NCBI RefSeq assembly: GCF_001586255.1 | Contig: NZ_CP014544.1 | Span: 599,001 to 663,000 of the forward strand | Direction: 5' to 3' | DNA: 64,000 nt | From: Zhongshania aliphaticivorans | GTDB taxonomy: Bacteria; Pseudomonadota; Gammaproteobacteria; Pseudomonadales; Spongiibacteraceae | Part shown: positions 7,319-38,905 of the stretch, piece by piece | How the letters are laid out: each line of letters starts with the position of its first letter | Position numbering within the stretch: the first letter of the stretch is position 1 | Program-made: the position numbers and the translations under genes | Notes under the pieces: generated by a model | Databases searched by the model: none | What the model was told of the DNA's origin: nothing | The model's input: the letters and a program-made list of their open reading frames with translations, nothing else

Positions 7319-8521
7319 TTATTGGGCGGCGTGCCGTTCATCCTGTACGCCAAGCATTTGCTCAAATGCGGAACCGTCCTGTCTTGTCAGGTTGGGTATA
7401 TACCGTGAATACACTTTGAAGAGCATTTCGGTGCTGGCGTGGCCAAGAAATCGAGCTACCCACTCGGGGTTTTCACCGGAAGCCAGTAATAGCGTCGCAG
7501 CGGTATGGCGAGTTTGGTAGGGCCGCCGCATCTTCAGGCCTAGATGGCGGAGTAGGGGATACCAGACACGCTTAGTAATATTGTTGTGATCAAGGGGCTT
7601 GCCTTCGGTATTGCAGAAAACATAAGGACTGAGCTTGCCGGTTGCTTGATATTGAGCCTCTAGTGCGGCTTTAACTGGCCCTAGCATGGGAATATCCCGC
7701 TGGCTGCCGTCAGTTTTGGTGTATTCGGTTTTGCCTTGAACTAATGTTTCTCTGATAGCGATCAGTCCGCGCTTAAAGTCGACGAATTCCCAGCGAAGCC
7801 CATCGATTTCACCGGTACGCATGCCAGAGTAAAAGCGCACCGCATAGTAATTGCGGTAATCCTCGCGTACCGATTCGATGATGCGGTTAACCTCGATTAA
7901 GGAAAACGGCTCAACATGGCTGCGCTGAAGCTTGAGGGGCTTGATGTTCTTATAAGGGTTTTCAAAGGAATAGCGATCTGACGCCTCTTCCAAAATGCCC
8001 TTTAATAGCGCCATATGGGTATTTATGGTCTTGGCTGCAATCTGCTCTTTACCGCCACGACCGGGTTTAGATGCAAGTTTAGATCGGAATTCAAGGATCT
8101 CGGCTTTGTTGATATCGGATAACACGCGTTTGCCGAAAAACTTGATCAGCGAGTTTGAAAGCACCGATTCAATGTTGCGGGCATGGGATGCACGCCATTC
8201 TATTTTCTTTTCGGTTTGCCATTGGCGTGCGAAACTTTCAAAGTTTGGAGACTCTACTTTTGTCGCTGCATTCTCTGCTGCAGAGTGAATATTCGAACCA
8301 GTGGTGGCGAATTTCGCAATATTTGGGCTATTCGGGAAAAACTCAGCGTAGTTAAAGTCCCCGAGTAGAATTTTGGCCTCCATTCGCTGGGTGAAGGCTT
8401 CGAGTTGTTTTCTGTTCTTGGGGTTGTCCTCTAGCAGAGTTTGCTCGCGGTAGCGGGTACCGTGTATGCGGAAATCTATAAAGAGTTTGCCCGTCTCCGG
8501 TCTAGTTCGAATATTAGCCAT
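7319..8521 (-). CDS. Phage-type tyrosine recombinase (integrase)
   Basis: A 400-residue site-specific recombinase. I take the ATG at 8521 (MANIRTRPETGKLF) instead of an upstream start, because it is the usual start of the N-terminal arm-binding domain. The first 60 or so residues form a beta-rich arm-binding domain, then a core-binding domain, then the catalytic domain with arginine in SGMRTGEIDGL, TRHTAATLLLASG (R-H box) and GHASTEMLFKVYSRY with the nucleophilic tyrosine. The start overlaps the end of the excisionase-like gene by eight bases. This int-xis-repressor arrangement is typical of prophages and phage satellites. No structural phage genes are visible nearby, so the element is a remnant or a small integrative element. 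Confidence 0.93.
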   Translation of the reverse strand: MANIRTRPETGKLFIDFRIHGTRYREQTLLEDNPKNRKQLEAFTQRMEAKILLGDFNYAEFFPNSPNIAKFATTGSNIHSAAENAATKVESPNFESFARQWQTEKKIEWRASHARNIESVLSNSLIKFFGKRVLSDINKAEILEFRSKLASKPGRGGKEQIAAKTINTHMALLKGILEEASDRYSFENPYKNIKPLKLQRSHVEPFSLIEVNRIIESVREDYRNYYAVRFYSGMRTGEIDGLRWEFVDFKRGLIAIRETLVQGKTEYTKTDGSQRDIPMLGPVKAALEAQYQATGKLSPYVFCNTEGKPLDHNNITKRVWYPLLRHLGLKMRRPYQTRHTAATLLLASGENPEWVARFLGHASTEMLFKVYSRYIPNLTRQDGSAFEQMLGVQDERHAAQ

Positions 8522-8747
8522 GGGAGACGCCTCCGTTGGCCAAGGGAATTGCAAAGTTGCTGTTAAAGCCTTCGAGCATTTCTTGTTCTATCACTTCCCA
8601 GATGTACAGTATCTTCCTTCCACCAAAAGGGCGTATGTAATGTTTACCCTCAAGTAGAACGCTATCTTTAAGGCTTTGTCTGATGGTTCTGGGGTCATAT
8701 TTTATTTTTGACGAAAGCTCTTCAGTTGTAAGGTATGTTCTGTTCAT
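8514..8747 (-). CDS. Excisionase-like small DNA-binding protein
   Basis: A 77-residue protein with a winged-helix/MerR-like N-terminus (YLTTEELSSKIKYDPRTIRQ) followed by a basic wing (IRPFGGRKILYIW). Small proteins of this kind placed immediately upstream of an integrase act as recombination directionality factors. Its 3' end overlaps the integrase start, so the two are translationally coupled. Transcription would begin in the AT-rich operator region that also drives the repressor in the opposite direction. Confidence 0.75.
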   Translation of the reverse strand: MNRTYLTTEELSSKIKYDPRTIRQSLKDSVLLEGKHYIRPFGGRKILYIWEVIEQEMLEGFNSNFAIPLANGGVSHG

Positions 8748-12821: not shown

Positions 12822-12829
12822 AGGCATTT
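12822..12829. repeat. Left target-site duplication of the ISL3 element
   Basis: The octamer AGGCATTT directly precedes the left inverted repeat and is repeated exactly after the right one at 14130-14137. Eight-base duplications are typical of the ISL3 family. Confidence 0.93.
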
Positions 12830-14129
12830 GGCTCTTCATCATTAACGGGGGACACCGGCATTCATTAAACTGAATTTGCGAAGAAACAGTTTGATGGAGA
12901 ATACCGATGTCCCACGCAGGAAGAATTATAGGCATATCTGGCCTTGAGATTGAACGGGTAGTTCGCAGGAAAGGGATCGAAGTCTGGGCAAAGCCTGTGC
13001 ACAGGCCGCCTTGTAAGCATTGTCAGGGCAATGGCCTGAGGATTAAGGCCACGCATCTCAGGACGGTGAAACATACCCGTCAGGGTAATCAGGTGCTGAC
13101 GTTACACTTGCGGGTTCCCAAGTACCATTGCACCTCTTGCAAGCGCTATTTTCGTCACGCCTTTACCGGTATTCGTCCGCGTTATCGCGCTTCAGAAGCC
13201 TATCGGCTGGAGGTGTTCGAAGCCCATGATGGCGGTGTAACGCAGCGCAAGTTATCTCGAACCCATCAAATCAGCCCAGCGACCGTAGAGCGTTGGTATC
13301 AGCACCATATTAAGCAAAAGCGTTCCGAGGGGGATCGCCGATATTGCCCCCGCGTCTTGGGGATTGATGAGCATTTCTTTACCCGTAAAAAGGGTTATGC
13401 GACTACGCTTACCGACCTCAAGAATCACAAAGTGTTTGATGTTCAACTAGGACGATCAGAATTGAGTTTGCGCCGCTATTTAAAGGCCCTTGAGGGTCGA
13501 GAGCGCGTTCAGGTTGTGGTGATGGATCTCTCGGAAACGTACCGCAGCATTGCCCGCCGTTACTTTCCCAGTGCCACGATCGTGGCTGACCGATTCCATG
13601 TGGTCAGACTTATTAACCAACACTTTTTAAGTGTCTGGAAGCAGCATGACCCAGAGGGAAGAAAGAACCGTGGCTTAATCAGTTTAATGCGCCGCCATCA
13701 GTGGAATTTGCGCGATGAGCAGCATGCCAATCTTATGCACTATTTGGCTGATTACCCTGTGCTGCAAGCACTGTATGTGGCCAAGCAACGATTAATCCGG
13801 TTTGTGTTGCTCAAGACCCTAACGCGCAAGAAAGCCAGCATCAAGTTGCCGGTATTTATGAGATTGCTTGAAGAGCTAGCTGAGAGCCCGCTACGAGCGC
13901 TAGCTAACACATTGCGCTCATGGTTGAAGCCCATTGTGGCCATGTGGCGATTTAGTAAAAGTAATGGAATAACGGAGGGCTTCCACAACAAAATGGAAAT
14001 GATGACACGACGAGCGTATGGTTTTAGAAACTTTGAAAATTACAGGATAAGAGTGCTAGCCCATTGTGGATGGGACGGGATTATAAACAGGGTTTAATGA
14101 GTGCCATCCCCCGTTAATGGGGTAGAGCC
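12830..14129 (+). mobile_element. Complete ISL3-family insertion sequence, 1300 bp
   Basis: The element is bounded by imperfect inverted repeats of about 25 bases: the left end begins GGCTCTTCATCATTAACGGG and the right end, read from outside on the minus strand, begins GGCTCTACCCCATTAACGGG. Exact 8-bp direct repeats (AGGCATTT) flank it. One transposase gene fills the interior. The perfect target duplication and undamaged gene point to recent insertion. It sits between the promoter side of the minus-strand membrane-protein operon and the recombinase region. Confidence 0.95.
12907..14097 (+). CDS. ISL3-family transposase
   Basis: A 396-residue transposase. The N-terminal zinc-ribbon (CKHC at about 37-40, then CTSC about 40 residues on) is followed by an HTH-like region (GVTQRKLSRTHQISPATVERW). 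The catalytic DDE domain shows GIDEHFFTR, VVMDLSETYRSI with ADRFHVVRLIN, and the C-terminal TEGFHNKMEMMTRRAYGFRNF with the glutamate. These are the standard ISL3 signatures. Full length with no frameshift, so the element should be able to move. Confidence 0.95.
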   Translation: MSHAGRIIGISGLEIERVVRRKGIEVWAKPVHRPPCKHCQGNGLRIKATHLRTVKHTRQGNQVLTLHLRVPKYHCTSCKRYFRHAFTGIRPRYRASEAYRLEVFEAHDGGVTQRKLSRTHQISPATVERWYQHHIKQKRSEGDRRYCPRVLGIDEHFFTRKKGYATTLTDLKNHKVFDVQLGRSELSLRRYLKALEGRERVQVVVMDLSETYRSIARRYFPSATIVADRFHVVRLINQHFLSVWKQHDPEGRKNRGLISLMRRHQWNLRDEQHANLMHYLADYPVLQALYVAKQRLIRFVLLKTLTRKKASIKLPVFMRLLEELAESPLRALANTLRSWLKPIVAMWRFSKSNGITEGFHNKMEMMTRRAYGFRNFENYRIRVLAHCGWDGIINRV

Positions 14130-14137: not shown

Positions 14138-14343
14138 TACTTCAAACCTTCAGGTTGCGCTGCGGCTCGAACTTGAGAGTAACGCTAAAGCGTGCTCGGT
14201 CCAATCGCTCTGCGTACCCGATTTCGAATTACTTTTGCGCGTATCTAGCTTCATTAGTATGGTTGAATAAACGCTGCTGGAATGAGGCGGGCGTTGACCG
14301 AAGGTCATCTGGTGGAGTTTAGAAATTTACTAGAAATACAATT

Positions 14344-14373
14344 TGGGCACACTGTGGGCACAGGATGGGCACA
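14344..14373. repeat. Three TGGGCACA direct repeats at exact 11-bp spacing
   Basis: TGGGCACA occurs at 14344, 14355 and 14366. The 11-base period places all copies on one face of the helix. Such phased short repeats beside an attachment core are characteristic arm-type sites of tyrosine integrases. A tRNA-like core fragment lies 70 bases to the right. Confidence 0.7.
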
Positions 14374-14400: not shown

Positions 14401-14437
14401 AACGGCAAGCCAGTAAGTAACTGATTTGCCGTTCTTT
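14401..14437 (+). terminator. Terminator-like hairpin
   Basis: AACGGCAA (14401-14408) pairs with TTGCCGTT (14426-14433) across a 17-base loop, preceded by an A-run and followed by CTTT. It stands between the arm-like repeats and the tRNA-like fragment. It would work in either direction. Confidence 0.55.
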
Positions 14438-14441
14438 AATG

Positions 14442-14470
14442 TGGTAGCGGGGGCAGGATTCGGTTATGAG
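14442..14470 (-). other. tRNA-derived fragment, probable attachment-site remnant
   Basis: On the minus strand 14462-14442 reads like the 3' end of a tRNA (T-stem remnant, acceptor GCCCCCGC, then TACCA). The adjoining bases GTTATGAG look like the complement of a CAU anticodon arm. It resembles an initiator tRNA-Met from which the T-loop region is deleted and whose 5' half is missing. It cannot be a working tRNA. Integrases commonly target tRNA 3' ends, so this is likely an att core or a displaced copy. Confidence 0.5.
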
Positions 14471-14600
14471 AATTAGCCTATTAATATACATCTAGTATAC
14501 TTAGACGGCATTAATTGGCTTAAAAAGGCGTATTAGTAGCGATTTTCCATATTTTGCGTTTTAATCTGAGAACACTTAACCACAATTGAGGTTGTTCTTG

Positions 14601-17600
14601 ATGGGCGCGAGTGGCACGGCAAACGCCATGGATGAGACGACCTTCGGGCTCGGTGAAAGCTTTTCTGCTATTGAGGAGTGGGCTAGGGCTGAAAACTTCC
14701 AGCCGGAATTGTTGCTCACTTACCACCTCTTAGGTCTTGATCATCATACCGTAGCTATCGCTAACTTGGCCACGGAGATCGTAAAGGAAGAATCTCAACA
14801 GGTAATCGCAGAGTGGGCTGGTAGTCAAATAGCTCAACGGCTCTCAGAATTTTCTCATGCCTTCATTGCTTCCGATATATACGCAACTCACACGGAAATA
14901 ACGATCAGCGGTAGTAACGCTAAAATCGCCCAAGTCTTGGGTGATAAAAAAGAGCGTTCGTTTCTACTATTTCTATTACTTACCTCAAGCCCCAATTTTA
15001 CCCACTGTCGCTACCCACAAGAAGCCGTGATTAACCACCAGCGGCTGAAGATTTGGCTGATATTGCAAGCGGCTGAGCGCCTAGTCGGCAAAGGACAAGC
15101 GAGAGATACTCTTGTCAGCACCGTTGCCAGATTTCTTTCGAAACCAAGAGATGATGGAGGATGGACGGCCATTTGTGCCCTGCTGGATCATTTGCATCAA
15201 TCTACACGTGGCTTCAGGGTCACATATCAGCAGTTTTCTGATGCGGTTGCCATAGCAGCTACTCCGGGTAACCTAGAAAGTGAAGCTCGCCGCCGTGCCT
15301 CAGGATTTTTTAATGCACTAGGTAAGTTGGCTGACGGTGAATATGATCCTATTCGCTCTCATCAGGCCTCGCGAATTGCCGGTCTTAATCAAATTGCTTC
15401 GCTAGCGAGTAGTAAAGAGGCAGAGATCGAAATTCCACCGCCCTTGTTTAATGTAGATGGACAAGGGTTCACCTCCTTGGATGTGGATGACACCGAGCAC
15501 GAGGGTTCGAGTACAGATAGTGAGCCAGCGTTTGTTCTCGATGTTGATCCTACAGATACCGCGGCAGAGCACGCTATTTCGGTAAAGACCTTTCATCTGC
15601 TCTCGCAGGAAGAAGCTAATTATTTGCCGTGGTCGTTGACGGGCGTATTGCCGCCTGAGCGTGCAGCCTTGGAGCGCTGGATCGAGGCAGGGCTCGAATC
15701 AGAGAGCGCGGAGCGAAGTTTAGGCGCGGCTATTGTTGGTCTCTCAGCAATGTGCTCAAGATCCTTTTATTTCACGCTCGCGTTTCAGGTTACTGAGTCC
15801 GTGGGCTTTGAGTGGTCATTGAACGAAGATCTCACTGCGGTGCATCGCCTTGCACCTCGGCGCCGCTCATCATGGGAACCGAATGCAAAGCAGGTTAATC
15901 TGGTAAGACCCTTTCAAAAGGTACTGACTATCGAGATTGCTCCAGGTATTAGTCGCGTCCTGAGGGCAGTCCGAGAGAAAGCGGAAGGCAGCCCTAAAAC
16001 GCTTCATGCTCTGTGGAAATCTGTTAGCGATGAAAAAATGGAGACGTGGTTTCACCGAGAGCGTAGCGATGAGATATCCCGTGTACTGACCGCCATGCCA
16101 GGTAAGTGGGCTGCTCAAGCTGCATACGACCGAAGTGGAGATCATAACTTAACGCGACTACTAATGGCGGAGCCTAATAGTGGTCTGCCCGCATCATGCG
16201 CCTATGGGTATTGGAGCGCTGGCGATGTTAAAAAAGCGATAGCGCGACCTGTTCTCTCTTCAGGGCCATTGGCGGATCAAATCAATGTCATGGGCAGTCG
16301 TCTAGTCATGGGGGCCGCTTATCTCGATAGCTGGATAGATCAAATCAAATCCAAGCTTCTTGAAGCTCCGGGGCTAGATTTTGTTGCGGGTCATAATCGC
16401 ATTGCGACATTCTGTGTGGTGGCGCTCTATGCTGCAACTGGATGCCGCCATACCCAAGATCCATTTGAGTCACTTTCGTACTTTGATCTGGAGGGGCGGT
16501 ACGTCTATATCGACGACAAGTCTGACGGTGTGTTGCATAACGGTCGCCTTACACCCTTACCCGAAGGAGTGTGCCGACTAGTCGCTCAATACATTGATTA
16601 TCTTAAGTGGCTAGCGGAGCAGCTGAGCACTATTGCACCAGCGCTTTCAAAGGAGTTGGTATGCTTGATAGAAGGAAAGCCTGCAAGCATGCCTCTTTTC
16701 TTCTTGCTTGATGCAGAATTGAACTGGCATTCGTTATCGGTCAAAAACAACCAGCTTCCTGGGTTACCATTTGTTGAGTGGGAGTTGCGGGTTAATCAGC
16801 TTCGTCACCGCTATGAACAGGTACTGCCGCGAGCTGGCGTGCATCCTGAGGTGGTGGATGCGTGGACTGGGCACTCCGAGCGCGGTGCCTCGACATACTC
16901 CGATTCCTCGCCTCGGTGCTGGATCGACGATGTCAGTGAATATAGCGAAGCGATTAATAATGTGTATAACGAGCTAGATTTACCGACGGCATTCCCGCTC
17001 CCAGTATTGCCGAGCCTCGGTGTGAAAAGCCAGTTTAACCCGCTACGAACGCAAAAATTCGGCATAAGGTTCCGTAAAGAAGAGCGTGCGAAAAATCGGA
17101 AAAAGGCGATTAGTGAGGCTCACCGCGATATCAACCTTTTTCTTAGGAATAGGAAAATAGCGGATCTGGATAAAACTGACATTGAACGGCTTGCAAAGAA
17201 GATGCTGTTCAATGACCGTAGTGTGCCAGCACCTTATGCTGCAATACGGCTTGCGATCCTAAATCGCAAAATCCGTAAAGAAGGCGATCCAAACAAGCGA
17301 GTTATCACAAAGACTATTGCAGAAATGCAGCCTGAGAAATCCTATATAAGTGAAGGGGTAATTCCGGCGCTAAAAACAGTACCCGAACTAGACACGTGGG
17401 CGAGTGAGGTGCTGAGTGCGAGCAGCCAAAACCGGATGTCGAAGATCGGGGCCGCATCTCTTGGTGCGGTTGTTTTGAGTATCGTAAAGCGCATTAGCTA
17501 CCGTCAGCTCGTTCAGGATGTCGCGTCTGGCAGGCATTATAGGGTGGTGCAGCATGGGGATCGATATTTTGTTGAGTACAACGAGACGTTAGAACTTGAT

Positions 17601-20033
17601 GATCTTAAAGCGCCCGTTCAGCGCCATGAGGTGAACTATAAGCTTGCTAGTCTGCTCCAGAAAGGGATTGGGCATAGTGGCAAAGAAAAGATATTGGAGG
17701 ATTCTCCGCACGATGCGCTGAAATCACTCCCCATTGGCAGCTTCATTGGAGCTGACGTCCATGTTCGTGATCTGAAGGCATTGACGGGAAGTCTCTGCGC
17801 CACTATTGGTCAATATAACTTAATTGCAATGCCCAGCGCAGTTGCTGGTGCGCTCAGTGAGCGTCATCCGCCGACCTCAGCCCCAATACAAGACATATTG
17901 CGTATTGTCGAGGGCCGATATGTAAAGCTCCCCAAAACGAAAAGCGAGCAAGATGAGGTGTTCGCGGCAGAGATCCCAGAAATTGAGGGAAATGCCGCCG
18001 ACCTAGATAAAGTGCAACTCCAGAATAACGCGAATGCCTACTTGCAAGAAATTTTCAATGAGCTCAAAAAATATGAGCCGAATCTAAGGTCAGCAAAAGC
18101 GACAGTTATCGCTATCACTGCTATATCAAAAACCCGCCGAAATGACGTGTCTAATGCTGTTCTTCTATTGGGCTATTGGATCAGCGAAAAAATACGATCG
18201 GGAAAAGGGCGAGGTAAGAACTTTTCGCCCTACGCGATTAATACCATCACAACCTACTTCAGTACTTTGCGCGGGCAATTTGCAGGTGTTTTGTATGACA
18301 CTGACCTGACGGCGCTGGAGAGTGAAGAGCTAACGGATTGTTATGAAGAGTTGCTTGAAGATGCGAAAGAAAATAAGAAAGATTTAAAATATTTTGGCGA
18401 TCTACTTCAAGTCTTTCATGGTTGGGCTGCTCAATATGGCCTAGAGGAGCCTGACTGGTCAGAACTCGATCTGGGGAATTCTTCGCGCCACGTTAGGGCT
18501 GGCCTAGTTTCAGAGACGGACTACTTGGCCGTCTTGCGACACCTTCAAGAGAGTAGTAATTGGCAACAAACTGATCACTTGTTCCTTGGCTTTGTTCTAC
18601 TCTTAAGTTTTCGTTTTGGCCTTCGAAGTAAGGAAGCCCGGTTCCTGCGAAGAAAAAATTGGTGTGAGTCCGGCGGTCAAATATGGGTGCTTGTCGAGAA
18701 CAATAGAAAGCGACGCCTAAAAAGCCATATGAGTCGTCGCGCGGTACCACTCCTATTTCAATTGGATGATGTTGAAATAAAATTAATTGAGATGATGCTT
18801 GCTCATTACGACGCCACAGCTGGTGAGGGGAAAAACGAGTATCTACTTAGTGAAACTATTGATGGCAGGCCGCAAATAACAAGTAAGCACAGTAATATTC
18901 CGAAGGCGTTGATCAAGCTGCTGCGCCAAGTCACTGGAACCTCTCATTTAGTCCTCCATCATTGCCGGCATGCGTTTTACAATACGTTATTTGCGGTGCT
19001 TTGCCCTGCCGAGTCTTTGTTGCATTCTCGATTAAGTAAGAACCTCAATGCACCGCAAATCCGAGAGAATATATTAGGGCCTCAAAGTAAGCTCTCCCGG
19101 CGAGTAGGCATGGCGGTATCGCGTCTAATGGGGCATTCAGGGCCAAGTAGTGGACTTAAGAACTATAACCACTTAATGACGGAGTGGTGCGATGCGTTGA
19201 CACCGGTGGTAAGTGAGCGTTGCTTAGAGGTTAGTGGCGCCCTTAATACGGGTGACCTAGAAGAGTCTAGGCCGATGATCGCCATGGTTGATCAATCCCC
19301 ATTGGCTTATCCGGTGCCCTCGTTGGAGCGAGTGCTTAAGACGCTGAGATTAGTTTCGCAAGGACGGAGTTATGCAAAAGCAGGTGAACTAGCTGGGTTG
19401 GAGCCAGCGCTCCTCGCCAATTTAGAAGACGTTATTAGTAAAACAACTAATAAAATGAGATTTAAGCGCCGCCTGGGTGATTGGAGCGCGGGTAATGATC
19501 ATGATGAAAAGGATTGGTTTATCGGTAGGGAAATGCCTAATGCTCTTTTGCACTATATTCAAGAATCTGCCTGGAACAGGCTAATCAATTTTTCTAAGGG
19601 CCGCAATTTCGTTATCGATAATGAGCAGTTTCCGCAATATGAAACAGAAAGAATACATGAGTTTATTGGTGAGCGTCGCCATTTACTCTTCGTGACAAGC
19701 GAAAGTTGCGCTTTCGTGAAGTATGTCCTCAATCAGCTTCAGCTATCAAGTGAGGCGTGTATTGGTGTGGCTAAAGGGAATGATCCTGATATTAAGGATA
19801 TTTTGCGTGTTCACGGGTTTCTTATTGATAGGGAATTCGAGCCAGCAGGCGCTGTAGGGGCAATTCGAATTGACCCTTTTCCAGATCCTTACCGTGGCGG
19901 AGTGAATCTTAAAAAGTATGGGGCGGTGGTTGTAGGTAGACGGAAAGAAGGCTTCATACGCAACAGTCATGAGCTTGTAGTCGCTTTTTTAGCGATCGCT
20001 GTACTATTAACTTACCAGGGGAGTGATTACTAA
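14601..20033 (+). CDS. Giant protein with two tyrosine recombinase catalytic domains
   Basis: 1810 residues in one uninterrupted frame. The ATG at 14601 has GAGG nine bases upstream; a TTG at 14586 is possible. The first catalytic domain shows R616 in TGCRHTQDPF, an NQLRH box (N732, R735, H736), H758 in GHSE and the tyrosine Y766. The usual first histidine of the HxxR box is asparagine. The second has R1342 in FGLRSKEA, H1453-x-x-R1456 in HHCRHAF, H1512 in MGHSG and Y1522, a complete set. A SAM-like core-binding segment precedes it (about 830-900). The N-terminal 550 and C-terminal 250 residues are unfamiliar. The gene end overlaps the convergent neighbour by four bases. I know of paired recombinases as separate genes (Tn554 type), not this single-chain form. 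Confidence 0.85.
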   Translation: MGASGTANAMDETTFGLGESFSAIEEWARAENFQPELLLTYHLLGLDHHTVAIANLATEIVKEESQQVIAEWAGSQIAQRLSEFSHAFIASDIYATHTEITISGSNAKIAQVLGDKKERSFLLFLLLTSSPNFTHCRYPQEAVINHQRLKIWLILQAAERLVGKGQARDTLVSTVARFLSKPRDDGGWTAICALLDHLHQSTRGFRVTYQQFSDAVAIAATPGNLESEARRRASGFFNALGKLADGEYDPIRSHQASRIAGLNQIASLASSKEAEIEIPPPLFNVDGQGFTSLDVDDTEHEGSSTDSEPAFVLDVDPTDTAAEHAISVKTFHLLSQEEANYLPWSLTGVLPPERAALERWIEAGLESESAERSLGAAIVGLSAMCSRSFYFTLAFQVTESVGFEWSLNEDLTAVHRLAPRRRSSWEPNAKQVNLVRPFQKVLTIEIAPGISRVLRAVREKAEGSPKTLHALWKSVSDEKMETWFHRERSDEISRVLTAMPGKWAAQAAYDRSGDHNLTRLLMAEPNSGLPASCAYGYWSAGDVKKAIARPVLSSGPLADQINVMGSRLVMGAAYLDSWIDQIKSKLLEAPGLDFVAGHNRIATFCVVALYAATGCRHTQDPFESLSYFDLEGRYVYIDDKSDGVLHNGRLTPLPEGVCRLVAQYIDYLKWLAEQLSTIAPALSKELVCLIEGKPASMPLFFLLDAELNWHSLSVKNNQLPGLPFVEWELRVNQLRHRYEQVLPRAGVHPEVVDAWTGHSERGASTYSDSSPRCWIDDVSEYSEAINNVYNELDLPTAFPLPVLPSLGVKSQFNPLRTQKFGIRFRKEERAKNRKKAISEAHRDINLFLRNRKIADLDKTDIERLAKKMLFNDRSVPAPYAAIRLAILNRKIRKEGDPNKRVITKTIAEMQPEKSYISEGVIPALKTVPELDTWASEVLSASSQNRMSKIGAASLGAVVLSIVKRISYRQLVQDVASGRHYRVVQHGDRYFVEYNETLELDDLKAPVQRHEVNYKLASLLQKGIGHSGKEKILEDSPHDALKSLPIGSFIGADVHVRDLKALTGSLCATIGQYNLIAMPSAVAGALSERHPPTSAPIQDILRIVEGRYVKLPKTKSEQDEVFAAEIPEIEGNAADLDKVQLQNNANAYLQEIFNELKKYEPNLRSAKATVIAITAISKTRRNDVSNAVLLLGYWISEKIRSGKGRGKNFSPYAINTITTYFSTLRGQFAGVLYDTDLTALESEELTDCYEELLEDAKENKKDLKYFGDLLQVFHGWAAQYGLEEPDWSELDLGNSSRHVRAGLVSETDYLAVLRHLQESSNWQQTDHLFLGFVLLLSFRFGLRSKEARFLRRKNWCESGGQIWVLVENNRKRRLKSHMSRRAVPLLFQLDDVEIKLIEMMLAHYDATAGEGKNEYLLSETIDGRPQITSKHSNIPKALIKLLRQVTGTSHLVLHHCRHAFYNTLFAVLCPAESLLHSRLSKNLNAPQIRENILGPQSKLSRRVGMAVSRLMGHSGPSSGLKNYNHLMTEWCDALTPVVSERCLEVSGALNTGDLEESRPMIAMVDQSPLAYPVPSLERVLKTLRLVSQGRSYAKAGELAGLEPALLANLEDVISKTTNKMRFKRRLGDWSAGNDHDEKDWFIGREMPNALLHYIQESAWNRLINFSKGRNFVIDNEQFPQYETERIHEFIGERRHLLFVTSESCAFVKYVLNQLQLSSEACIGVAKGNDPDIKDILRVHGFLIDREFEPAGAVGAIRIDPFPDPYRGGVNLKKYGAVVVGRRKEGFIRNSHELVVAFLAIAVLLTYQGSDY

Positions 20034-20854
20034 ATTATCGCGTTAAATGCGAGTAATTCATTAACTACCTTTCCCCCTAATTTATTTCCTTTTTCTTTGT
20101 AAAGACAGCTGAATTTTGTGTGATCAATATAGCCTCGTGCCGCTTGGATGAATGTATCGTGTGAAATTGTGTGCAGTACAATTCTCTTTCCTTCTAAATC
20201 ACCCTCCACAATCGTACCTTTTATTTCTTTGTTATTATCATCAAAACCATGAATTTCGATTACGGCTTGAATTTGTGTCATGTCGATTTGATGCAGAGTG
20301 GCCTTCTTAATGCGCCCAGTGAAATAGATTGTACTCGATTCGGAAAGTCCGAGGTGGCATTCAAATGGCTTTGATATTTTAGAACCTGAATGTTTTTCAA
20401 TAAACTCGCTAATACAAATATCAAAAAATTCAACCTCTTCTTTGCTGAATAGTTTTAATTCAAGTTGATGGTCCCAAATGCCAGTTTCAGAAAGAGTTCT
20501 TTGCGTTAAGTAAGATAGGGCATTGACAAGGAAGTCAAAAATATCGTCAATAGTATGTTCTGGTCCAAATGCAATTATTTCAGAGTAGAATTGTCCGAAT
20601 TTGCGCTTGTATAGATCAAGTTGATCCTCGATTTTAAGAGATATTGCTGAATTTCCATGAAACGTGCACAAATATTTTGTAAGCGAAGAATAAAGGTAGT
20701 GAACGAGTTTGTGCTCATCGGTGTTAATAACCAAGTTTTTCTTTATTGTAAAAACTGAATCTATATTTTTTGTAATAAAATCGACATGTGGGGATGTTGA
20801 TAATATCGTTCTAGATGATGTGCTGTGTTTTTCGGGGTCAGAGATATCTGGCAT
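20030..20854 (-). CDS. Hypothetical protein
   Basis: 274 residues, not recognised. It begins at an ATG after a weak GGTGA element. The first half is helical; the second half (about 165-250) alternates short beta strands (SSTIYFTGRIKKATLHQI, QAVIEIHGFDD, GTIVEGDLEGKRIVLHTI), compatible with a small beta-barrel. No membrane segment or signal peptide. It is AT-richer than the recombinase gene it meets tail to tail, which suggests a separate origin. Two further AT-rich unknown genes lie behind it on the same strand. Confidence 0.65.
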   Translation of the reverse strand: MPDISDPEKHSTSSRTILSTSPHVDFITKNIDSVFTIKKNLVINTDEHKLVHYLYSSLTKYLCTFHGNSAISLKIEDQLDLYKRKFGQFYSEIIAFGPEHTIDDIFDFLVNALSYLTQRTLSETGIWDHQLELKLFSKEEVEFFDICISEFIEKHSGSKISKPFECHLGLSESSTIYFTGRIKKATLHQIDMTQIQAVIEIHGFDDNNKEIKGTIVEGDLEGKRIVLHTISHDTFIQAARGYIDHTKFSCLYKEKGNKLGGKVVNELLAFNAII

Positions 20855-30674: not shown

Positions 30675-31409
30675 ATGGTACGGAATCAGGACAGCCGCGG
30701 GGCATTTCCCGCATCCCGGCCAAAACGACGCTTCACCCCGAAAGAGCTGCGCCTCGATACGTTCCCGATTCAGCATGTGCAAATCGACTGGCAGCGCCTC
30801 ATGGCCAAGCGCGAACTCGTGTTGGATACCGTGGACGCGATGCCCACGTACTTACTCAAGCCCGAAGTCCTGGGCCTTCTCGACGCCGAAAAACACCCAA
30901 CTTACCGCCTGATTCTTGACCTTATGTGGACTGCCGGCGCTCGGATTTCTGAGGTTCTGGCCCTCACACCGAGCCACTTCATTGATGACGGCTACGATTT
31001 CATGGTGGTGCTGCGCACACTTAAACAGCGGCCGGGGAGACCGACTAACGTACAACTCGCCCGTAGCCCAAAGCGGGCCGTGCCCATCATTGACCCGATG
31101 CTTCAAGATCGCATACAGAGCTACCTGTACGCGGGCCATTTTAGGAAGGACGAGCGGATCTTCACCATGGCGCGCCAGACAGTGAACCGGCACATCCATG
31201 ATCTGGTGGATAGAGTAGGGGGCGCGCCGATCAATATTACCTGTCATACCTTTCGGCACAGCTTCGCGATCCATCTATTGCTGCACGGACGGCCGCTGAA
31301 GGTTGTCAGTCAGCTCTTGGGGCATAAATCGATCGAAAGTACCGAGATTTACACCAATGTGCTCACCGCCGATGGCGGGCATTTTTTGGACGGGGTTGAT
31401 TTTCATTGA
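30675..31409 (+). CDS. Short tyrosine recombinase
   Basis: 244 residues. The catalytic domain is complete: arginine in TAGARISEVLAL, HTFRHSFAIHLL (HxxR), and LGHKSIESTEIYTNV with the nucleophilic tyrosine. Only a short basic N-terminus precedes it (about 75 residues), so it lacks a full arm-binding and core-binding region, like plasmid- and integron-cassette-borne recombinases. GC content is higher than in the flanks. It is 79 bases upstream of the Avs-like gene on the same strand, and recombinase next to defence gene suggests a mobile defence cassette. Confidence 0.9.
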   Translation: MVRNQDSRGAFPASRPKRRFTPKELRLDTFPIQHVQIDWQRLMAKRELVLDTVDAMPTYLLKPEVLGLLDAEKHPTYRLILDLMWTAGARISEVLALTPSHFIDDGYDFMVVLRTLKQRPGRPTNVQLARSPKRAVPIIDPMLQDRIQSYLYAGHFRKDERIFTMARQTVNRHIHDLVDRVGGAPINITCHTFRHSFAIHLLLHGRPLKVVSQLLGHKSIESTEIYTNVLTADGGHFLDGVDFH

Positions 31410-31488
31410 GGCCTAAGTATTTTAAGTACATCGCGTTATTGTCCTAGTTCTGCTTAGAACAAATGTCGTTGAATCATAGTTGGGGAAT

Positions 31489-34400
31489 ATGTCAAAAACC
31501 AAGAGACCTATTGATAAGGTCCGAGCATCAAGGGACGGACACGAATACCATGAAGCATGGGCTGCGCGACACGCCATGCGGATTTTGCTGCCGAACTCCG
31601 ATTTGGTTGGAATAGCCATAGAGGGACTGGAGCCCGGAGACCAGAGGTCGGCATCAGAAGAAACTATAGAGATCGCTGATCTCGCTTTTTACTATGGCAG
31701 GCGAGCGAGTTTCAATGGTGCGAGAAAAGTCTGCATTGCACAGTTTAAATACTCAATTCGCGACAGATCCAATCCGTTTCGGGCTGCCGATGCAAAGAAG
31801 ACCATAGAAAAGTTCGGAAAGGCCTTTCGTAGTCTAAGGGGTAAGTATGGGGCTCCACTCGTTCGGAAAAAGGTTGCGTTTGAACTTCATACCAACAGGC
31901 CTATATATAGTCCATTGGTCGAAGCGCTTGATGCGCTGGCGACAGGAACGGCAGTTTCAGGTGAAGTAAAAAAACAAGCAGATCAACTTAAATTGGCCTG
32001 TGGGCTTACTGGAACTGCATTGTCCGAATTTGCTGGAAAATGCAGTATCCAAAGTCTGAATGACACCTTGCGTGAATCTAAAGCCCAGCTTTCCAGCACC
32101 ATTGTTGATTGGTTTGGCAATGGTAGTGATGCCATTGCACGGGCAAGTCTTGGTGACCTCAAGCAAATGATCCGCGATAAGGCCGGATTCGCAGGTACCG
32201 ATAGAAACATTATCGAACATACGGACATCCTTGCTGCATTAGGGTTATCTGATAGCAGCGATCTCCTTCCGTGTCCCGAGGCCCTCGCTGATGTTGGTGA
32301 TATCGTCGAGCGTGAACAGTTAGGCGAAGCTGTTTCCCTTGTTGCTAATCTCGACAAGCCACTTATGGTCCGCGCTGCTGGCGGTACCGGCAAAACAGTG
32401 TTCCTGGACAGCATTTGCAAATCACTTTCGAATGACCACGAAACGGTGTTCTTTGATTGTTTTGGAGGAGGGAACTACAGATCGCCTGGCGACGCACGCC
32501 ACCATCCTCGCCGAGGTTTCATTCATATAGCCAATACCCTCGCTTGTCGCGGATTGTGTGATCCGATTATCCCAGGAAGCGACGACATTGATTCATTGAT
32601 CAATACGTTTCGTCGAAGAATTGAGCAATCGGTCGCTACTCTCGCTTCAAGCAATAGCAAGAAAAGCCTCGTTCTTTTCATTGACGCTATAGATAATGCT
32701 GCAATTCACGCAAAGGACAAACGTGAGGATTCGTTTCCGGTACTGCTTGTCGAACATCTGAATGCAAACCCGGTACCCGGCTTTAAAGTTGTCTTGTCGT
32801 CGCGCACAGAGCGGATTCCCATATCCGACAATTCCTATGTAGATTTCGCTCTCCGTAATTTTAGTTTGGATGAAACCAAGTGCTATCTTCAGGCACGGAT
32901 ACCCGATGTCAGAGAATCGGAGATTCGTGTTGCACAGGCTCGATCTCAAGGAACTCCACGCATTCTCCAATATATGCTGGATACAGAGAGAGGGCTTCTG
33001 GATGAATCCGAAATCAATAAAAAGATTGTACTCAATGACCTGATTCAGGGACGTATCGACAGTGCGCTGGACGAAGCCAGACAGCGCGGCTCCAAAACGG
33101 AGGAGATTAACTCATTCTTGGCAGGTCTAGCTGTCCTACCTCCGCCGGTTCCCCTAAACGAATATGCTCAAGCACATGGTATGGCAATCAGTGCCATAGA
33201 GAGCTTTGCATCTGATTTGTCACCGTTATTGGAACGGACAAAGCATGGGTTGATTTTCAGGGACGAGCCGACAGAAGATCTGGTTCGGGAGAGATATGGT
33301 TGCCTTAAAACACCGCTTCGTTTTCTGGCGAAAAATCTCTTAAAAATGCAGGCTCAATCTGTCTATGCCGCCCGTTCGCTGCCAGATCTACTACTGTTAC
33401 TAGGTGATGCTAGGAAACTGTTCACACTCGCGTTTGATCAGACATTCCCTAAAGAGGTAACCGGCTCGGTTGGCAAGCGTAATATCCGGCTCTCCCGTCT
33501 TAAGGCAGCGATTCGCCATGCGGCATTAGAAAAAAACTATGATCAGCTTGTAGAGCTTACCGTCGAGATGTCGACCGTTGCCGCTGTTGATCGCCGTGGC
33601 ACCGATTATATATTGGATTTCCCCGATCTTGTCATTGCGGCTCAGGATACCGACGCAACCAGGCGGCTATTCGAAGCACGAACTGGTTGGCAGGGAACGC
33701 GGCATGCCCGGTTGGCAATCGCTAACACGCTTTCTGGTGACCATGATGAAGCGCTTCGACATATCCTGGCGACAGAAGACTGGGTGCGGCATTTCCATAA
33801 ACAAGACAGAGATGATCGCCCCTATGGGGAGGGACCAAAGTCTATCGATAATGCATCTGTCACATTCTATTTGCTGGGCCAGAAGCGATTTGAAGATGCA
33901 GCGAATACGCTAGATCGGTGGTACGACTGGTATACCTATAAAATTTGCGAACACGTTTTCGGTTTTGTCTCTCACCCTCAGTCCAATATCGAATATTGCG
34001 ATGTAAAAGGTTTTCTTAATGTACTTTCAAGCAAGGTCGGGGCTTTAACCGCCGCATTGGCGCATCTCGATTTAAAGCCACTTGAGCAAAAAGCACTTTT
34101 ATCCAAGATATCCAAAGCGGCCAGCGATACAGATAAAATCGATGTGCCCGTTCACGGCTCGCGCGACACCGGAGAAATAATTAACGGCTTTCGCAAAGCA
34201 GCCTCGTTAGCCTTGGCTTTACAAGATCGGCGCTCTGCAAAAGCCATCGGTAAGTTGCTCCCTACAGATAGGGCTGGTCTTTGGTTATTTAGGGATCACT
34301 ACTCAGAACAGTATGTATTCCCATTCATTTTCGGCGTAGCCTTGAACGCAGCTATCAAGGATATTGAAGTTCATGAAAAGGATCTGATGCCGAGTGAGCT

Positions 34401-37400
34401 TCGTGACGCCGCTTCCGGGATCAAAAATAGCTTGGCAGGTATAGACTTTCGCCAAGAGCTTGAAAAGCGGCTGGCCAAGCGAATACGTACTGGAACGCAA
34501 GATCAGGAAAAAGAGAAGAAGCCCGGATCGATTAGCTATGAGGATAATCAGCACGCAGAGCGCTTTCTAAATTATCGTTTTGAACCCCTGCTCGACTTGA
34601 CGAGAAAACTGTCCATCGTCCTTCGTAAGCCGAAAGGAAGAGCGGACAAGGCATTCAAAGATCTTGTCAAGTCTTGGGTGGAGACCAGAAAGGAACGGGA
34701 CTACTATCGCGCAGGCAGGTTAAGTCCTTTCTTCACGCTCCTGGGGTTGCAGCTGATACAATTTACTTTGTGGGCTAGGGATGATTTGAAAGCTGCCTCC
34801 GTAAAGACTTTCCTTAATCAACTGCACGACCTGGAAATTGTTTCTACATCCACATTGATAGAATTGGTCTCCATTTTCTCCAAGAGATCCCGGTTGCATG
34901 ATTTTGCTGGTCAAGAAGCGATCCGGTGCGCTTCACTCATTGGGTCTGAAAACGAGATCGACTATAGAGCTTCACTTTATGCGAGACTCGGTCGGGCAAT
35001 TCTACCAGCTAGTATGGAGGAATCTGCAGAGTACTTCCGTGCCGGTCTGGAGCAGATGGATGCCATTGGTTCAGGGGACTACCAGTATACTAACCATCTT
35101 TTTATTCTAGCTGCATCCGTCAAAGGTGCTGAGCTTAAAGAGGCTGATTTTCACACATTGTCGAATATCGCCGAACTTAACCTGACAGATGAACCTGAAA
35201 AATTTCCCTGGTATGCATTCGGACAAGGGATGTCGAGGGTCTCGGGCTGTAGAGGCCTTGCCAAACTCAGTCGATGGGACGATAGGGATAAGGTCACGCT
35301 TGATTGTACGTTAAGGCCCTATTTAACAGCACTCGTTGAGGATGACAAAGTCGCCCCCGAAGACGCGGTAGCACTTAACTGGCTTGCTGATCCAGCAGAT
35401 TACTGGTCATGTAATACCGAGACTTTCGCGAAGGCCCTGGCCGGAAAAAATAGTGAGAATAAAAAACAATTAGTTACGGAGTTAGTTGAGCAATTCGAAG
35501 CGAACAATCCGGGCCTTTCTACTGAGTCAACTGTCAAGGCTCTCGCGGAGATTTCGAGAAGTGTCCTTGGAACTAGGTCCAAAATTGTTAGCCGCTTGAA
35601 TTCTCTGTATCCACATTTTGGCCGGGTAATCAATACACGTAATGAACATGCTAACTATCGTTCCAGCGACGATTTAAAACTCAGGCGCGCCGCAGATAAG
35701 CGAGAAGCGAAGAGCCAAAGCGTACTTACTCGCGTTGCTAATTCTACACGACCGGGTGATTACGAATCGTTGAGTAGCGCGCTTGCAGCGCTAAGTGATA
35801 GCGAAAGTGCATACCGTGTAAAAGATGATTTTTTTGACAAGCTGCGTGTGAAAGTCGGATATGGAGAGCGGGCCGCTTATGTCCGAAATATTTCTGGAAG
35901 TGAACACCTCAATCTCTATTGGAAGCTCGATGAGCTTAAAAAGTGCAATGAATTGTGGTCGGTGTCGTCCGGTGCTCTCAAAAGTGTATATCGACAACTT
36001 GCGAATGCGTTGATATTTCAGCACCTTGACGACCTCATTAGCAACGACAGTCTATCAATCTATCACCTCGCAGATATTTCAGAACTTTCCGGGCTTCCCT
36101 TGGCCGAACTTGTGCTGGAGATAGTCAAGTTGTTCTCTGAACCCGAGTCGTCAGTCGGAGCGCCTGTTTGGCTTGATTTTGCGCACCTTATCTGCGAGCA
36201 AGCTGGCGAGGGGAAAGGGCAGGCTGCGCTTACAAGACTGCTCAGGAGCGACGCAGCAAAACTATCCGGGAGTGTGCTCGACGGTGAGTGGAAAAACGGG
36301 CTTTATCCAAAAAATAAACAGGCGCAAATCTTCGCGGGCCTAGTCTGGCGGCAATTGGGTTCGCCCCGCGCAAGTGACCGTTGGCGGGCTGCTCATTGTA
36401 TTCGTTCCTTTGCGCGCTTCGGGAAATGGAGAGTTGTTGACGCACTTCTGGCGCAGCTAGAGAATCAGGATGCCGGTCCGTTCCATGCCCCAGAATTGAG
36501 GTTTTACTACCTTCATGCAAAGCTTTGGCTATTGATTGCGATAGCTCGGATTTCCAAGGATCATCCAGCGGAGGTTTCCAGGTATAAATCCAAGCTCGAC
36601 CGGGTTCTAGACGATTCAGATGTAAGGCATGTCCTTATGCGGCATTTTGCGGCAAAGGCCTTAATCACGTGTATCGAAGCGAGAGAGATAACCGTTAGTA
36701 CAAAGCGAGAGTCCGAACTCAGAAGTGTTGATCAGTCTCCCTATCCGCTGCTGGAAGAAAAGCTTAAGAAATATAACGGGGATTATCACGAGAACCGTCC
36801 AAAAGCGGCACCGAAACGCGCCTATGATTTTTCACTGGAATATGACTTCAATAAAGAAGACGTCCACTACCTAAGCAATGTTTTTGGGCAGCCACATTGG
36901 TTGGTTGTTGACCTGATCTCAGACATCGTCCACGACATGGATGATGATGCCAAAAGTATGTATGCGTCAGGTGGGCGTGATGGCGCACCACGTGCTAGAC
37001 GTGGACTTAGCAGTGCCTATCATTCTTATGGTGAGCAGCTCGCCTGGCATGGAATGATGATTGCCGCTGGCCAATTGCAGAAAACCAAGCCAGCGACCCA
37101 GGATTGGTGGTGCGACGATCCATGGAATGATTGGCTTAGTCGGTATCTCTTAACGAGAGACGACGGGGTTTGGATCTCGGATATCCTCAACCGAGCTCCT
37201 CCGGAAGTGACTTCAATTCTAATGGAGAGAGGAAAAGACGGACTTGGACTAACAGGTGACAAAAGAAAAATTCTAGGACTAGCGGGACTTGATAACGGAA
37301 TTGATAAATCCGTCGTCGTTGCTGGAAGTTGGTTTTCTGCCGATCACATTCGAGTTCAAATCAGCTCGGCTCTTGTTCGCCCGCGAGAAGCGAAAGCCGT

Positions 37401-37947
37401 TATCAAGAGTCTTCAATCGGACGATCCCATGTGTGTCTGGCTTCCCTCCTGCGCAGAAGACGATGATGGTAAAGGCTATATAAATAGTGAGAAGAGCAAC
37501 TGCCTGCCATGGATCACGATGCCTGGACGTGAGCCGCGTCTCGATGGTGATGACCCAATCGCCAGTGCAGCCGTTTTGCACAAGCCTCGCATAGCGATAG
37601 GCATCGCCGATAGTTTGAATCTTAAAAGTCGTGGCCCGTTCGGCTGCAGTTGTACCGCCAGAGGCAGATTAAAAGCAGAATCAGAAGCCTGGGCTTATTC
37701 AAAATCGAGAGAAGGTGGATCTGGCGATGGTCATCGGCTGGTTGTAAATAAGGCGCTTCTTGAAAAGCTTCTTGTACGTAATAATTCTGATTTAATATTA
37801 CTGATTAACTTACAAAAACATGAAAGCGGATACCGATATGAAAGTGGTAAATATTGGCATACTGTGGCCGTAGTTCGTATTAAGAAATCTTTAAAGATCG
37901 AATATTTTAAGGGCGTTATTAACCATATCTGGAGTTCAAACTATTAA
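31489..37947 (+). CDS. Avs-like antiviral STAND NTPase with N-terminal Cap4/DUF4297-type nuclease-like domain
   Basis: 2152 residues from the ATG at 31489 (a TTG at 31480 would add three). Residues 10-110 match the pattern of Cap4/DUF4297 restriction-type nucleases: GHEYHEAW, then E45, D64 (ADLAFYYG) and Q85-x-K87 (QFKYS), a PD-(D/E)xK variant. A STAND NTPase follows, with Walker A AAGGTGKT (K302) and Walker B LVLFIDAIDNA (D399, D402). The remaining 1500 residues are helical repeat-like and would sense a target. In Avs proteins this C-terminal part recognises phage terminase or portal protein and switches on the effector. Size is at the upper end of that group. Subfamily cannot be set by eye. 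Stands alone, preceded by a recombinase. Confidence 0.82.
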   Translation: MSKTKRPIDKVRASRDGHEYHEAWAARHAMRILLPNSDLVGIAIEGLEPGDQRSASEETIEIADLAFYYGRRASFNGARKVCIAQFKYSIRDRSNPFRAADAKKTIEKFGKAFRSLRGKYGAPLVRKKVAFELHTNRPIYSPLVEALDALATGTAVSGEVKKQADQLKLACGLTGTALSEFAGKCSIQSLNDTLRESKAQLSSTIVDWFGNGSDAIARASLGDLKQMIRDKAGFAGTDRNIIEHTDILAALGLSDSSDLLPCPEALADVGDIVEREQLGEAVSLVANLDKPLMVRAAGGTGKTVFLDSICKSLSNDHETVFFDCFGGGNYRSPGDARHHPRRGFIHIANTLACRGLCDPIIPGSDDIDSLINTFRRRIEQSVATLASSNSKKSLVLFIDAIDNAAIHAKDKREDSFPVLLVEHLNANPVPGFKVVLSSRTERIPISDNSYVDFALRNFSLDETKCYLQARIPDVRESEIRVAQARSQGTPRILQYMLDTERGLLDESEINKKIVLNDLIQGRIDSALDEARQRGSKTEEINSFLAGLAVLPPPVPLNEYAQAHGMAISAIESFASDLSPLLERTKHGLIFRDEPTEDLVRERYGCLKTPLRFLAKNLLKMQAQSVYAARSLPDLLLLLGDARKLFTLAFDQTFPKEVTGSVGKRNIRLSRLKAAIRHAALEKNYDQLVELTVEMSTVAAVDRRGTDYILDFPDLVIAAQDTDATRRLFEARTGWQGTRHARLAIANTLSGDHDEALRHILATEDWVRHFHKQDRDDRPYGEGPKSIDNASVTFYLLGQKRFEDAANTLDRWYDWYTYKICEHVFGFVSHPQSNIEYCDVKGFLNVLSSKVGALTAALAHLDLKPLEQKALLSKISKAASDTDKIDVPVHGSRDTGEIINGFRKAASLALALQDRRSAKAIGKLLPTDRAGLWLFRDHYSEQYVFPFIFGVALNAAIKDIEVHEKDLMPSELRDAASGIKNSLAGIDFRQELEKRLAKRIRTGTQDQEKEKKPGSISYEDNQHAERFLNYRFEPLLDLTRKLSIVLRKPKGRADKAFKDLVKSWVETRKERDYYRAGRLSPFFTLLGLQLIQFTLWARDDLKAASVKTFLNQLHDLEIVSTSTLIELVSIFSKRSRLHDFAGQEAIRCASLIGSENEIDYRASLYARLGRAILPASMEESAEYFRAGLEQMDAIGSGDYQYTNHLFILAASVKGAELKEADFHTLSNIAELNLTDEPEKFPWYAFGQGMSRVSGCRGLAKLSRWDDRDKVTLDCTLRPYLTALVEDDKVAPEDAVALNWLADPADYWSCNTETFAKALAGKNSENKKQLVTELVEQFEANNPGLSTESTVKALAEISRSVLGTRSKIVSRLNSLYPHFGRVINTRNEHANYRSSDDLKLRRAADKREAKSQSVLTRVANSTRPGDYESLSSALAALSDSESAYRVKDDFFDKLRVKVGYGERAAYVRNISGSEHLNLYWKLDELKKCNELWSVSSGALKSVYRQLANALIFQHLDDLISNDSLSIYHLADISELSGLPLAELVLEIVKLFSEPESSVGAPVWLDFAHLICEQAGEGKGQAALTRLLRSDAAKLSGSVLDGEWKNGLYPKNKQAQIFAGLVWRQLGSPRASDRWRAAHCIRSFARFGKWRVVDALLAQLENQDAGPFHAPELRFYYLHAKLWLLIAIARISKDHPAEVSRYKSKLDRVLDDSDVRHVLMRHFAAKALITCIEAREITVSTKRESELRSVDQSPYPLLEEKLKKYNGDYHENRPKAAPKRAYDFSLEYDFNKEDVHYLSNVFGQPHWLVVDLISDIVHDMDDDAKSMYASGGRDGAPRARRGLSSAYHSYGEQLAWHGMMIAAGQLQKTKPATQDWWCDDPWNDWLSRYLLTRDDGVWISDILNRAPPEVTSILMERGKDGLGLTGDKRKILGLAGLDNGIDKSVVVAGSWFSADHIRVQISSALVRPREAKAVIKSLQSDDPMCVWLPSCAEDDDGKGYINSEKSNCLPWITMPGREPRLDGDDPIASAAVLHKPRIAIGIADSLNLKSRGPFGCSCTARGRLKAESEAWAYSKSREGGSGDGHRLVVNKALLEKLLVRNNSDLILLINLQKHESGYRYESGKYWHTVAVVRIKKSLKIEYFKGVINHIWSSNY

Positions 37948-38023
37948 GTTCGAATAAAGATATATTTTCAATATAAGCGAGTTATTTACTTCCTCCAGAG
38001 GAAATGCTCTATGTTTTCAGCAT

Positions 38024-38794
38024 TTAAATATTCTCAAGAGCGCGCATAATTTGCTCTTCAGGAGGTTCTTCGTAAATCAAGGTTGTTGATGGATTGACGT
38101 GACCTGCGATCTTCTGTGCGATCTTCACTGATTTTTTCTGCTTATGAATGACATTAGTTATAAGGGATCGTCGGCCGCTGTGCGAACTGGCCTTTTCGAC
38201 GCCAGCCCAGTCCCTCAGTATCACCGCCATATGTTCCTGTAGAGTGTTTGGGGAATACGGCCCACCTTTTTGAGTAATAAAAAGAGGGGAGGAAGGCATT
38301 AGAGTTCCGGTCTTTTCAAGTCGTAAGCGCAAATATTCTGTCAGCGCTGCGCGAAGTGCGGCGCTTACCATAGGGAGATCTCTAAATTTTCCGCGATGCT
38401 TCCTGACTGGTGGATAAAAATCCTCTGGTTTCACCTCAGCACCAGCTTTGGCTAGGGCTTCGACTTGGCGAACGACCTGGTTGAAACTCTCTACATTGAA
38501 ACTGACTGTTCTCCGCTGGTACTGGCTTTGGGACCGCCCCATAGCATCAGCACCTTTGGTGTAGGCTGCTGGCAGGCTCATGACTTCCAATAATTTGAAA
38601 TCCGTACCCGACGCATTCAGTTTCGCGACTTCTTTGACTTGGAGTAGCGCGATTTCTTGGGCCCGCAGCCCAAGCTTGAAACTGATCTGCATGATGGCTG
38701 TGTTCTTTTCAATGTGCCGGTGGTGCTGAATCACATCGAATACGTGGTCTTGTTGCTCGGCGGTGAGGACGCGCGCCTGGCCAGATTTAGGCAT
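38024..38794 (-). CDS. Short tyrosine recombinase
   Basis: About 256 residues from the ATG at 38794 (MPKSGQARVLT); an upstream extension to 38905 has no family support. The catalytic set is visible: arginine in LGLRAQEIALL, SHSGRRSLIT (H-x-x-R), and AGHVNPSTTLIYEEP with the tyrosine. No arm-binding domain. It differs clearly from the other recombinases in the window. It closes the accessory region on the right and faces the Avs-like gene tail to tail, so either it or the recombinase at 30.7 kb may have mobilised that gene. Confidence 0.9.
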   Translation of the reverse strand: MPKSGQARVLTAEQQDHVFDVIQHHRHIEKNTAIMQISFKLGLRAQEIALLQVKEVAKLNASGTDFKLLEVMSLPAAYTKGADAMGRSQSQYQRRTVSFNVESFNQVVRQVEALAKAGAEVKPEDFYPPVRKHRGKFRDLPMVSAALRAALTEYLRLRLEKTGTLMPSSPLFITQKGGPYSPNTLQEHMAVILRDWAGVEKASSHSGRRSLITNVIHKQKKSVKIAQKIAGHVNPSTTLIYEEPPEEQIMRALENI

Positions 38795-38905
38795 GAAAAA
38801 CCTCGAAGAGGGCTGTAACAATAATCCGTAATAATCATATTTTAACGGATTTTTGACTGAAGTGCGCCTATTTAGACAAAGTGCGGAGCATATTGATGAT
38901 TCCAC

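Follow-up and report, generated by a model that had tools for sequence, protein, structure and literature searches.

The window analyzed here, the whole stretch of 64,000 nucleotides under study, corresponds to C1:599001-663000 of the 4.20-Mb chromosome of Zhongshania aliphaticivorans (genome G000). It carries a single reading frame with two tyrosine recombinase (YR) domains, located beside a fragment of the initiator tRNA-fMet gene. The features of the locus are the following, in window coordinates:

14586-20033, plus strand: double-YR gene, 1815 aa from a TTG start (ORF list; alignment, profile and residue evidence)
16263-16985, plus strand: first (N) YR catalytic domain, about aa 560-800, with R621, K645, N737, R740, H763 and Y771
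18123-19220, plus strand: second (C) YR domain, about aa 1180-1545, with R1347, K1379, H1458, R1461, H1517 and Y1527
14442-14461, minus strand: remnant of the 3' end of the initiator tRNA-fMet at the left junction, 20 nt, with 16 nt missing before GGTTATGAG
14462-14470, plus strand: GGTTATGAG, with which the island begins on its left side, recurring at every left junction read
14402-14432, minus strand: terminator-like hairpin of the tRNA, part of the duplicated tRNA flank
14345-14373, plus strand: three GGGCACA repeats with an 11-bp period at the right end of the preceding island, candidate arm-type sites
14295-14307, no strand assigned: palindrome TGACCGAAGGTCA at the right end of the preceding island, found once in the window
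7319-8554, minus strand: arm-type integrase, 411 aa, belonging to the preceding island (Phage_integrase listing, identity comparison)
20030-20854, minus strand: convergent 274-aa gene, tentative member of a family of ~290 aa present near most fused genes

A first-pass annotation, based on the 1810-aa version of the ORF that starts at the ATG at 14601, read two sets of YR motifs in this frame. Residues, profiles and homologues confirm that it is a genuine single polypeptide with two YR domains. With the window protein as query, Pfam matched the second domain only (Phage_integrase, aa 1334-1468, E = 6e-4, below the cut-off), PHROG gave an integrase match at aa 1185-1532 and NCBIfam returned a single irrelevant weak match; the N domain in isolation had no Pfam match. 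The profiles built from homologues go further. That of the N domain (27 rows) matches solved XerC-like and XerD structures (4a8e, E = 1.3e-6; 1a0p, E = 3.8e-6) and that of the C domain (25 rows) matches 4a8e (E = 1.8e-8), while 16 of the 27 N-domain members match the Pfam Phage_integrase at E <= 1 (best 3.5e-6). The first domain thus classes as a YR by profile similarity and the second by both profile similarity and its residues (R-K-H-R-H-Y). AlphaFold models had pLDDT values of 44 (N) and 35 from input alignments of only two rows (the window protein and L003), and a Foldseek search with this N-domain model found no match at E <= 0.001. A recent internal duplication received no support from the alignment of the two domains with each other (hhalign probability 2%).

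The catalytic residues listed above for both domains are invariant in an alignment of nine full-length fused proteins. In a wider set of 35 rows, the C domain keeps R, K, R and H in 35/35, H-II in 32/35 and the Tyr in 34/35, the remaining row stopping short of the Tyr position; it is the most secure candidate catalyst. In the N domain, R-I and K are kept in 34/34 rows where present, and R-II and H-III in 35/35. The H-II position, which aligns with the His of the HxxR motif of XerD (H763 aligns with the His of the GH motif), is occupied by Asn in 33 rows and by Tyr in two. The first-pass annotation had noticed this His-to-Asn change; its distribution makes Asn the family state, not a defect. 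The real question at this site is the nucleophilic Tyr, which is found in 13/35 rows, namely in 12/12 of the window clade and in 1/23 of the others (on a Vibrio plasmid), F, L, W, M or Q being present in the remaining 22. The Ser located four residues past the nucleophile position (S775 of the window protein) is kept in 34/35 rows, while the Tyr is mostly lost. Purifying selection acts on both catalytic domains in each of the four pairs compared: dN/dS is 0.11-0.21 in three congeneric pairs (window protein/G004a, G001/G004b and G000b/G016), and the G321/G250 pair gives 0.15 for the N domain and 0.09 for the C domain.

Full-length fused proteins number 11, including that of the window, in nine genomes of three genera. 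A second full-length copy (38% identity to the window protein) is encoded 36 kb upstream on the same chromosome (577933-583224), and a relative with 95% identity occurs in Zhongshania sp. BJYM1 (L003). Within the genus, 10/18 genomes match, some with a single frame of ~1785-1815 aa and the others with the halves in two adjacent genes (~790-830 and ~1020-1085 aa). Across the order, 36/390 genomes match the cassette at E <= 1e-3, several of them weakly, in a search that was incomplete for split cassettes (G003 was matched in the genus search and missed here). The one-ORF layout is found in G321 and G250 and, more distantly, in G316, G263 and G233. Further layouts are two ORFs carrying the N and C domains respectively (N|C) and, in G354, G123 and G323, an ORF of 539-567 aa and a second one, of 1238-1350 aa, that holds both catalytic domains; in G354, this second protein (1238 aa) has two stretches matched by Pfam Phage_integrase. 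In the C-domain tree (35 rows; the C-terminally truncated G011 and a second short C fragment of G229 were left out, and the N-terminally truncated G170 was kept), the window clade is one branch of 12 rows, one of them truncated (support 100/100), and 17 N|C-split rows fall on one side of a branch (81/80). Plasmids also carry relatives: an Acinetobacter plasmid has consecutive genes of 145, 774, 1060 and 399 aa, the last being an arm-type integrase, and a Vibrio plasmid has genes of 197, 743 and 995 aa with no arm-type integrase listed nearby. The large plasmid-borne relatives are annotated as "hypothetical protein", "integrase" or "site-specific integrase". No relative of the double YR appeared in viral contigs scanned with short peptide patterns, which, as only such patterns were scanned, is weak evidence against a phage origin. 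An ORF of 274-299 aa convergent toward the fused gene is present in 10/12 window-clade loci; since the 274-aa protein of the window is only 13-17% identical to seven others aligned, its membership of this family is tentative. In two loci, 222-aa and 346-aa genes, which we take to resemble an AbiE-type toxin-antitoxin pair, lie between the tRNA junction and split YR genes (L027, 4873-6581; L036, 1434-3142).

The double-YR start codon lies 124 bp inward of the left junction of an island of ~75 kb. The tRNA-like fragment and the phased arm-like repeats reported in the first-pass annotation were both borne out, the former as the 3' 20 nt of the tRNA-fMet directly abutting GGTTATGAG, the latter as GGGCACA copies at 14345, 14356 and 14367. 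In the ten copies compared in the genus (that of G011 is truncated), GGTTATGAG is found upstream of the gene, preceded by a 3' piece of tRNA-fMet on the opposite strand and of variable length, and the junction lies 0.1-0.25 kb upstream of the fused gene. Left junctions at this same distance from the fused gene also exist in G321 and G250, so that the repeatable element ends which that annotation proposed to look for among homologues do occur at tRNA-fMet, in the genus and in these two genomes. The shortfall of the remnant left of GGTTATGAG is 5 nt in G011, G321 and G250, 8 in G008, 16 in the window and G004a, 18 in G013, 19 in G001, G004b, G010 and G016, and 32 in G000b, where only ~4 nt of the remnant are left. 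Shortened remnants always abut GGTTATGAG directly; three other junctions (G013, G016 and G017) retain the full 46 nt. An intact tRNA-fMet is present in 18/18 genomes of the genus (721217-721293 in G000). Directly outside the left junction of the window there is an ISL3-family insertion sequence (12829-14129), and similar copies or ends occupy comparable places in G010, G011 and G013 and next to the second G000 copy; in G001, G004 (both copies), G008 and G016, no ISL3-similar DNA was found upstream of the fused gene. The idea that the gene is a passenger of ISL3 was rejected, as the ISL3 copy ends at 14129, outside the tRNA junction.

Such islands form a tandem array on the G000 chromosome, which shows, in order of coordinate, a junction next to what is left of the start of a fused gene (565611), a junction with a gene (577768), the junction of the window (613462), a tRNA stub (688507) and then the intact tRNA. 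Since the next stub after the window's junction, from which the right end was inferred, is that at C1:688507, the window island probably extends from 613462 to ~688506, a length of 75 kb. On its outer left side, the array matches the tRNA-left flank of G009 and its right flank matches that of G014; both flanks joined were seen in no congener examined. G321 and G250 belong to two other genera of the same order, in another family, and their fused orthologues also lie at tRNA-fMet, in islands running from ~36.06 to ~63.5 kb of the contig (G321) and from ~944.4 down to ~891.9 kb (G250). Intact tRNA copies lie at the far end of both islands, where the whole upstream tRNA plus spacer is repeated. 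Internal junctions were found in none of the islands of G001, G321 and G250. In G354, homologues of the left and right neighbours of the G321 island (50% and 40% identity) enclose three tRNA-fMet genes at a distance of 1.57 kb from each other, whereas this distance is ~28 kb in G321; judging from these neighbours, G354 is an empty site relative to G321. The corresponding comparison is less clean for G250, because 8 kb separate its left neighbour gene and the tRNA. With a remnant at one end and an intact tRNA at the other (G321, G250 and G001) and an empty site in G354, these elements have the sequence hallmarks of tRNA-targeting genomic islands.

Other elements share this site and this island. 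A serine-recombinase island (G000:C1:688507-721261; L108, L109) ends in the same tRNA-fMet gene, which is therefore a general hot spot; 9.1 kb of it beside the tRNA are 100% identical in G007, which suggests a recent transfer. The window island contains two further YR genes (30675-31409, 244 aa; 38024-38905, 293 aa), which complicate the picture of a system with three YRs. Between them (window 30675-38905) lies a gene of 2155 aa with a weak NACHT-like match, and G016 has a 2146-aa gene 24% identical to it near its own tRNA-fMet islands.

The right ends of the islands have a recombinase of their own. The same ordinary arm-type integrase lies 1-6 kb from the right end in 6/6 islands examined (two in G000, plus G001, G010, G250 and G321) and faces inward; in the five islands of G000, G001, G321 and G250, its orientation is opposite to that of the fused gene. 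That of the window island is located outside the window (C1:683927-685201). Identity to the window arm-type integrase is 61-82% in the islands examined and 50-54% for the integrases next to the cassettes of G044, G175, G138, G205, G170 and G233. At E <= 1e-60, this integrase was detected in 29/36 genomes with the cassette versus 14/354 without a detected one (Fisher p = 9e-27), and in 22/29 versus 12/344 when the genus is excluded (p = 4e-21); these figures assume that both searches drew on the same 390 genomes, 17 of them from the genus, and may be inflated by genomes rich in mobile elements as well as affected by the incomplete cassette search. The other 7/36 cassette genomes lack the integrase at this threshold. 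Among the 22 pairs found on one contig (from the 36 cassette genomes and typed by hand, seven being related window-clade islands), the integrase is downstream of the cassette and convergent with it in 15, of which 11 have 17-81 kb between the genes; the remaining seven are arranged otherwise. To the left of the intact tRNA, GGGCACA- or GTCACAG-type repeats with a 10-12-bp spacing were recognized by eye in 12 or 13 of 19 sequences, most of which also show a GAAGGTC variant of the palindrome farther out; by the same inspection, they are missing in G009, G000, G007, G016 and G017. These repeats may be the arm-type sites of the right end. The first-pass annotation had suggested that the double-YR protein could act as a self-contained unit. 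Since the far end of the islands has its own arm-type integrase, the presence of which goes with that of the cassette throughout the order, this protein is probably not self-contained.

Starting from the two YR domains and the constraint on both, the tRNA junctions, the tandem array, the empty site of a relative and the linkage to the integrase, we propose that the double YR is the left-end recombinase of tRNA-fMet islands and that it forms, with the right-end arm-type integrase, a three-YR integration and excision system bracketing the cargo, a reading to which we give a probability of roughly two in three. The fused chain would combine two YRs that other relatives encode as neighbours (N, ~800 aa; C, ~1050 aa). 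Excision would yield a circle with attP between the genes of the double YR and the arm-type integrase, which would lie back to back and divergent, and integration at tRNA-fMet would leave the 3' fragment on the left and the intact gene on the right. The C domain would perform YR strand exchange, and the arm-type integrase would bind the right-end repeats and supply the remaining subunits. In the window clade, the N domain could either be a second active site, one polypeptide then amounting to a covalent dimer, or, as is probable for its Tyr-less relatives, mainly bind DNA as a partner that does not cleave.

Several scenarios may explain the same arrangement. It is common for arm-type integrases of this Pfam type to move tRNA islands, and the integrase is present in 14 genomes without a detected cassette, as would be expected if it moved the islands alone and the double YR were a passenger near the left end, or a stabiliser acting for instance on tandem arrays or against excision. 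Yet some of these 14 may have a cassette, given the split ones that the search missed, and the order-wide linkage of both genes, the constant position that the double YR occupies next to the left junction in three genera and the constraint on its catalytic residues make this scenario unlikely. The role of the first domain is more evenly balanced. We would give about even odds to its being a pseudo-recombinase, whose YR fold and R-K-R-H pocket would serve DNA binding or subunit contact without ever cleaving, Tyr771 being incidental. Outside the window clade, the Tyr is replaced in 22/23 rows with R, K, R and H invariant, which fits this possibility, as do the Tfp proteins of SEs, described in PMC10214605 as having the YR fold and no catalytic motif. 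Nevertheless, the Tyr persists throughout a window clade whose rows differ by up to ~65% in sequence, and once outside it, and dN/dS is low.

The first site of the window clade has the full usual set except His-II, a residue that varies among YRs, so both sites of a covalent heterodimer might be functional; the loss of the Tyr from the same domain in nearly all other rows makes a non-cleaving role about as likely. A fuller version, in which two working and non-identical sites in one chain bind both halves of the att core as a covalent heterodimer and form an ordered synaptic complex with the arm-type integrase, is a tentative one that we find rather doubtful. The dimer-like synapsis by tandem fusion imagined in the first-pass annotation is possible in these terms. 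That annotation had also accepted that separate-gene relatives might expose a chance fusion or an assembly error. Such relatives exist, with adjacent genes, but the same uninterrupted frame in nine genomes of three genera, its grouping in one clade and its low dN/dS leave this explanation a negligible probability, and the conserved fused homologues rule it out. As a whole, the earlier interpretation is partly supported.

The proposed three-YR system resembles several known elements without coinciding with any of those compared. Ordinary arm-type tRNA islands share the split and restored tRNA, the displaced fragment at the far end, the arm-type integrase and the tandem accretion; here, an additional double YR of ~1800 aa stands at the opposite end. 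As described in PMC10214605, SEs are integrative and target-specific and have three YR-related proteins, one ordinary and the others large, one of them without the catalytic motif. Nevertheless, they encode these as separate genes in one block, whereas the window has fused YRs, a third YR at the other end and a tRNA-fMet target, and homologues of IntA, Tfp, IntB and Srap in one block are not what its system contains. Against the SE proteins of pSEA1, the N profile had no match and the C profile matched IntA alone, weakly (E = 5e-4; arm-type integrase, 4e-6). GInts (GinA, GinB, GinC, GinD), as presented in PMC5385486, are islands with three putative integrases and variable cargo, in both of which they resemble the islands described here; in that account, a single ginABCD operon lies at one end and the repeats are of 10-17 nt, in contrast to fused YRs and an arm-type integrase at opposite ends and a tRNA target here; the two differ in architecture. 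Tn554 (TnpA, TnpB, TnpC), according to PMC10214605, is an element that needs more than one YR; its proteins are separate, and gene organisation distinguishes it. Tn554 and RIT elements have separate TnpA/TnpB/TnpC or RitA/RitB/RitC genes, where the window has a fusion. Literature searches limited to open-licence PMC papers brought up no described two-YR polypeptide or recombinase-bracketed island.

YRs normally assemble their synapse from separate subunits. If the fuller version with two working sites is true, the double YR would represent a new kind of tyrosine-recombinase machine, and its islands a class with their own recombinases at both ends. The naturally fused N and C domains, relatives with separate genes and a nucleophile retained in the fused window clade would make the division of labour between subunits directly testable. 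The matches in 36/390 genomes of the order point to a widespread island family, and its insertion target would be an initiator tRNA gene, which the island must repair.
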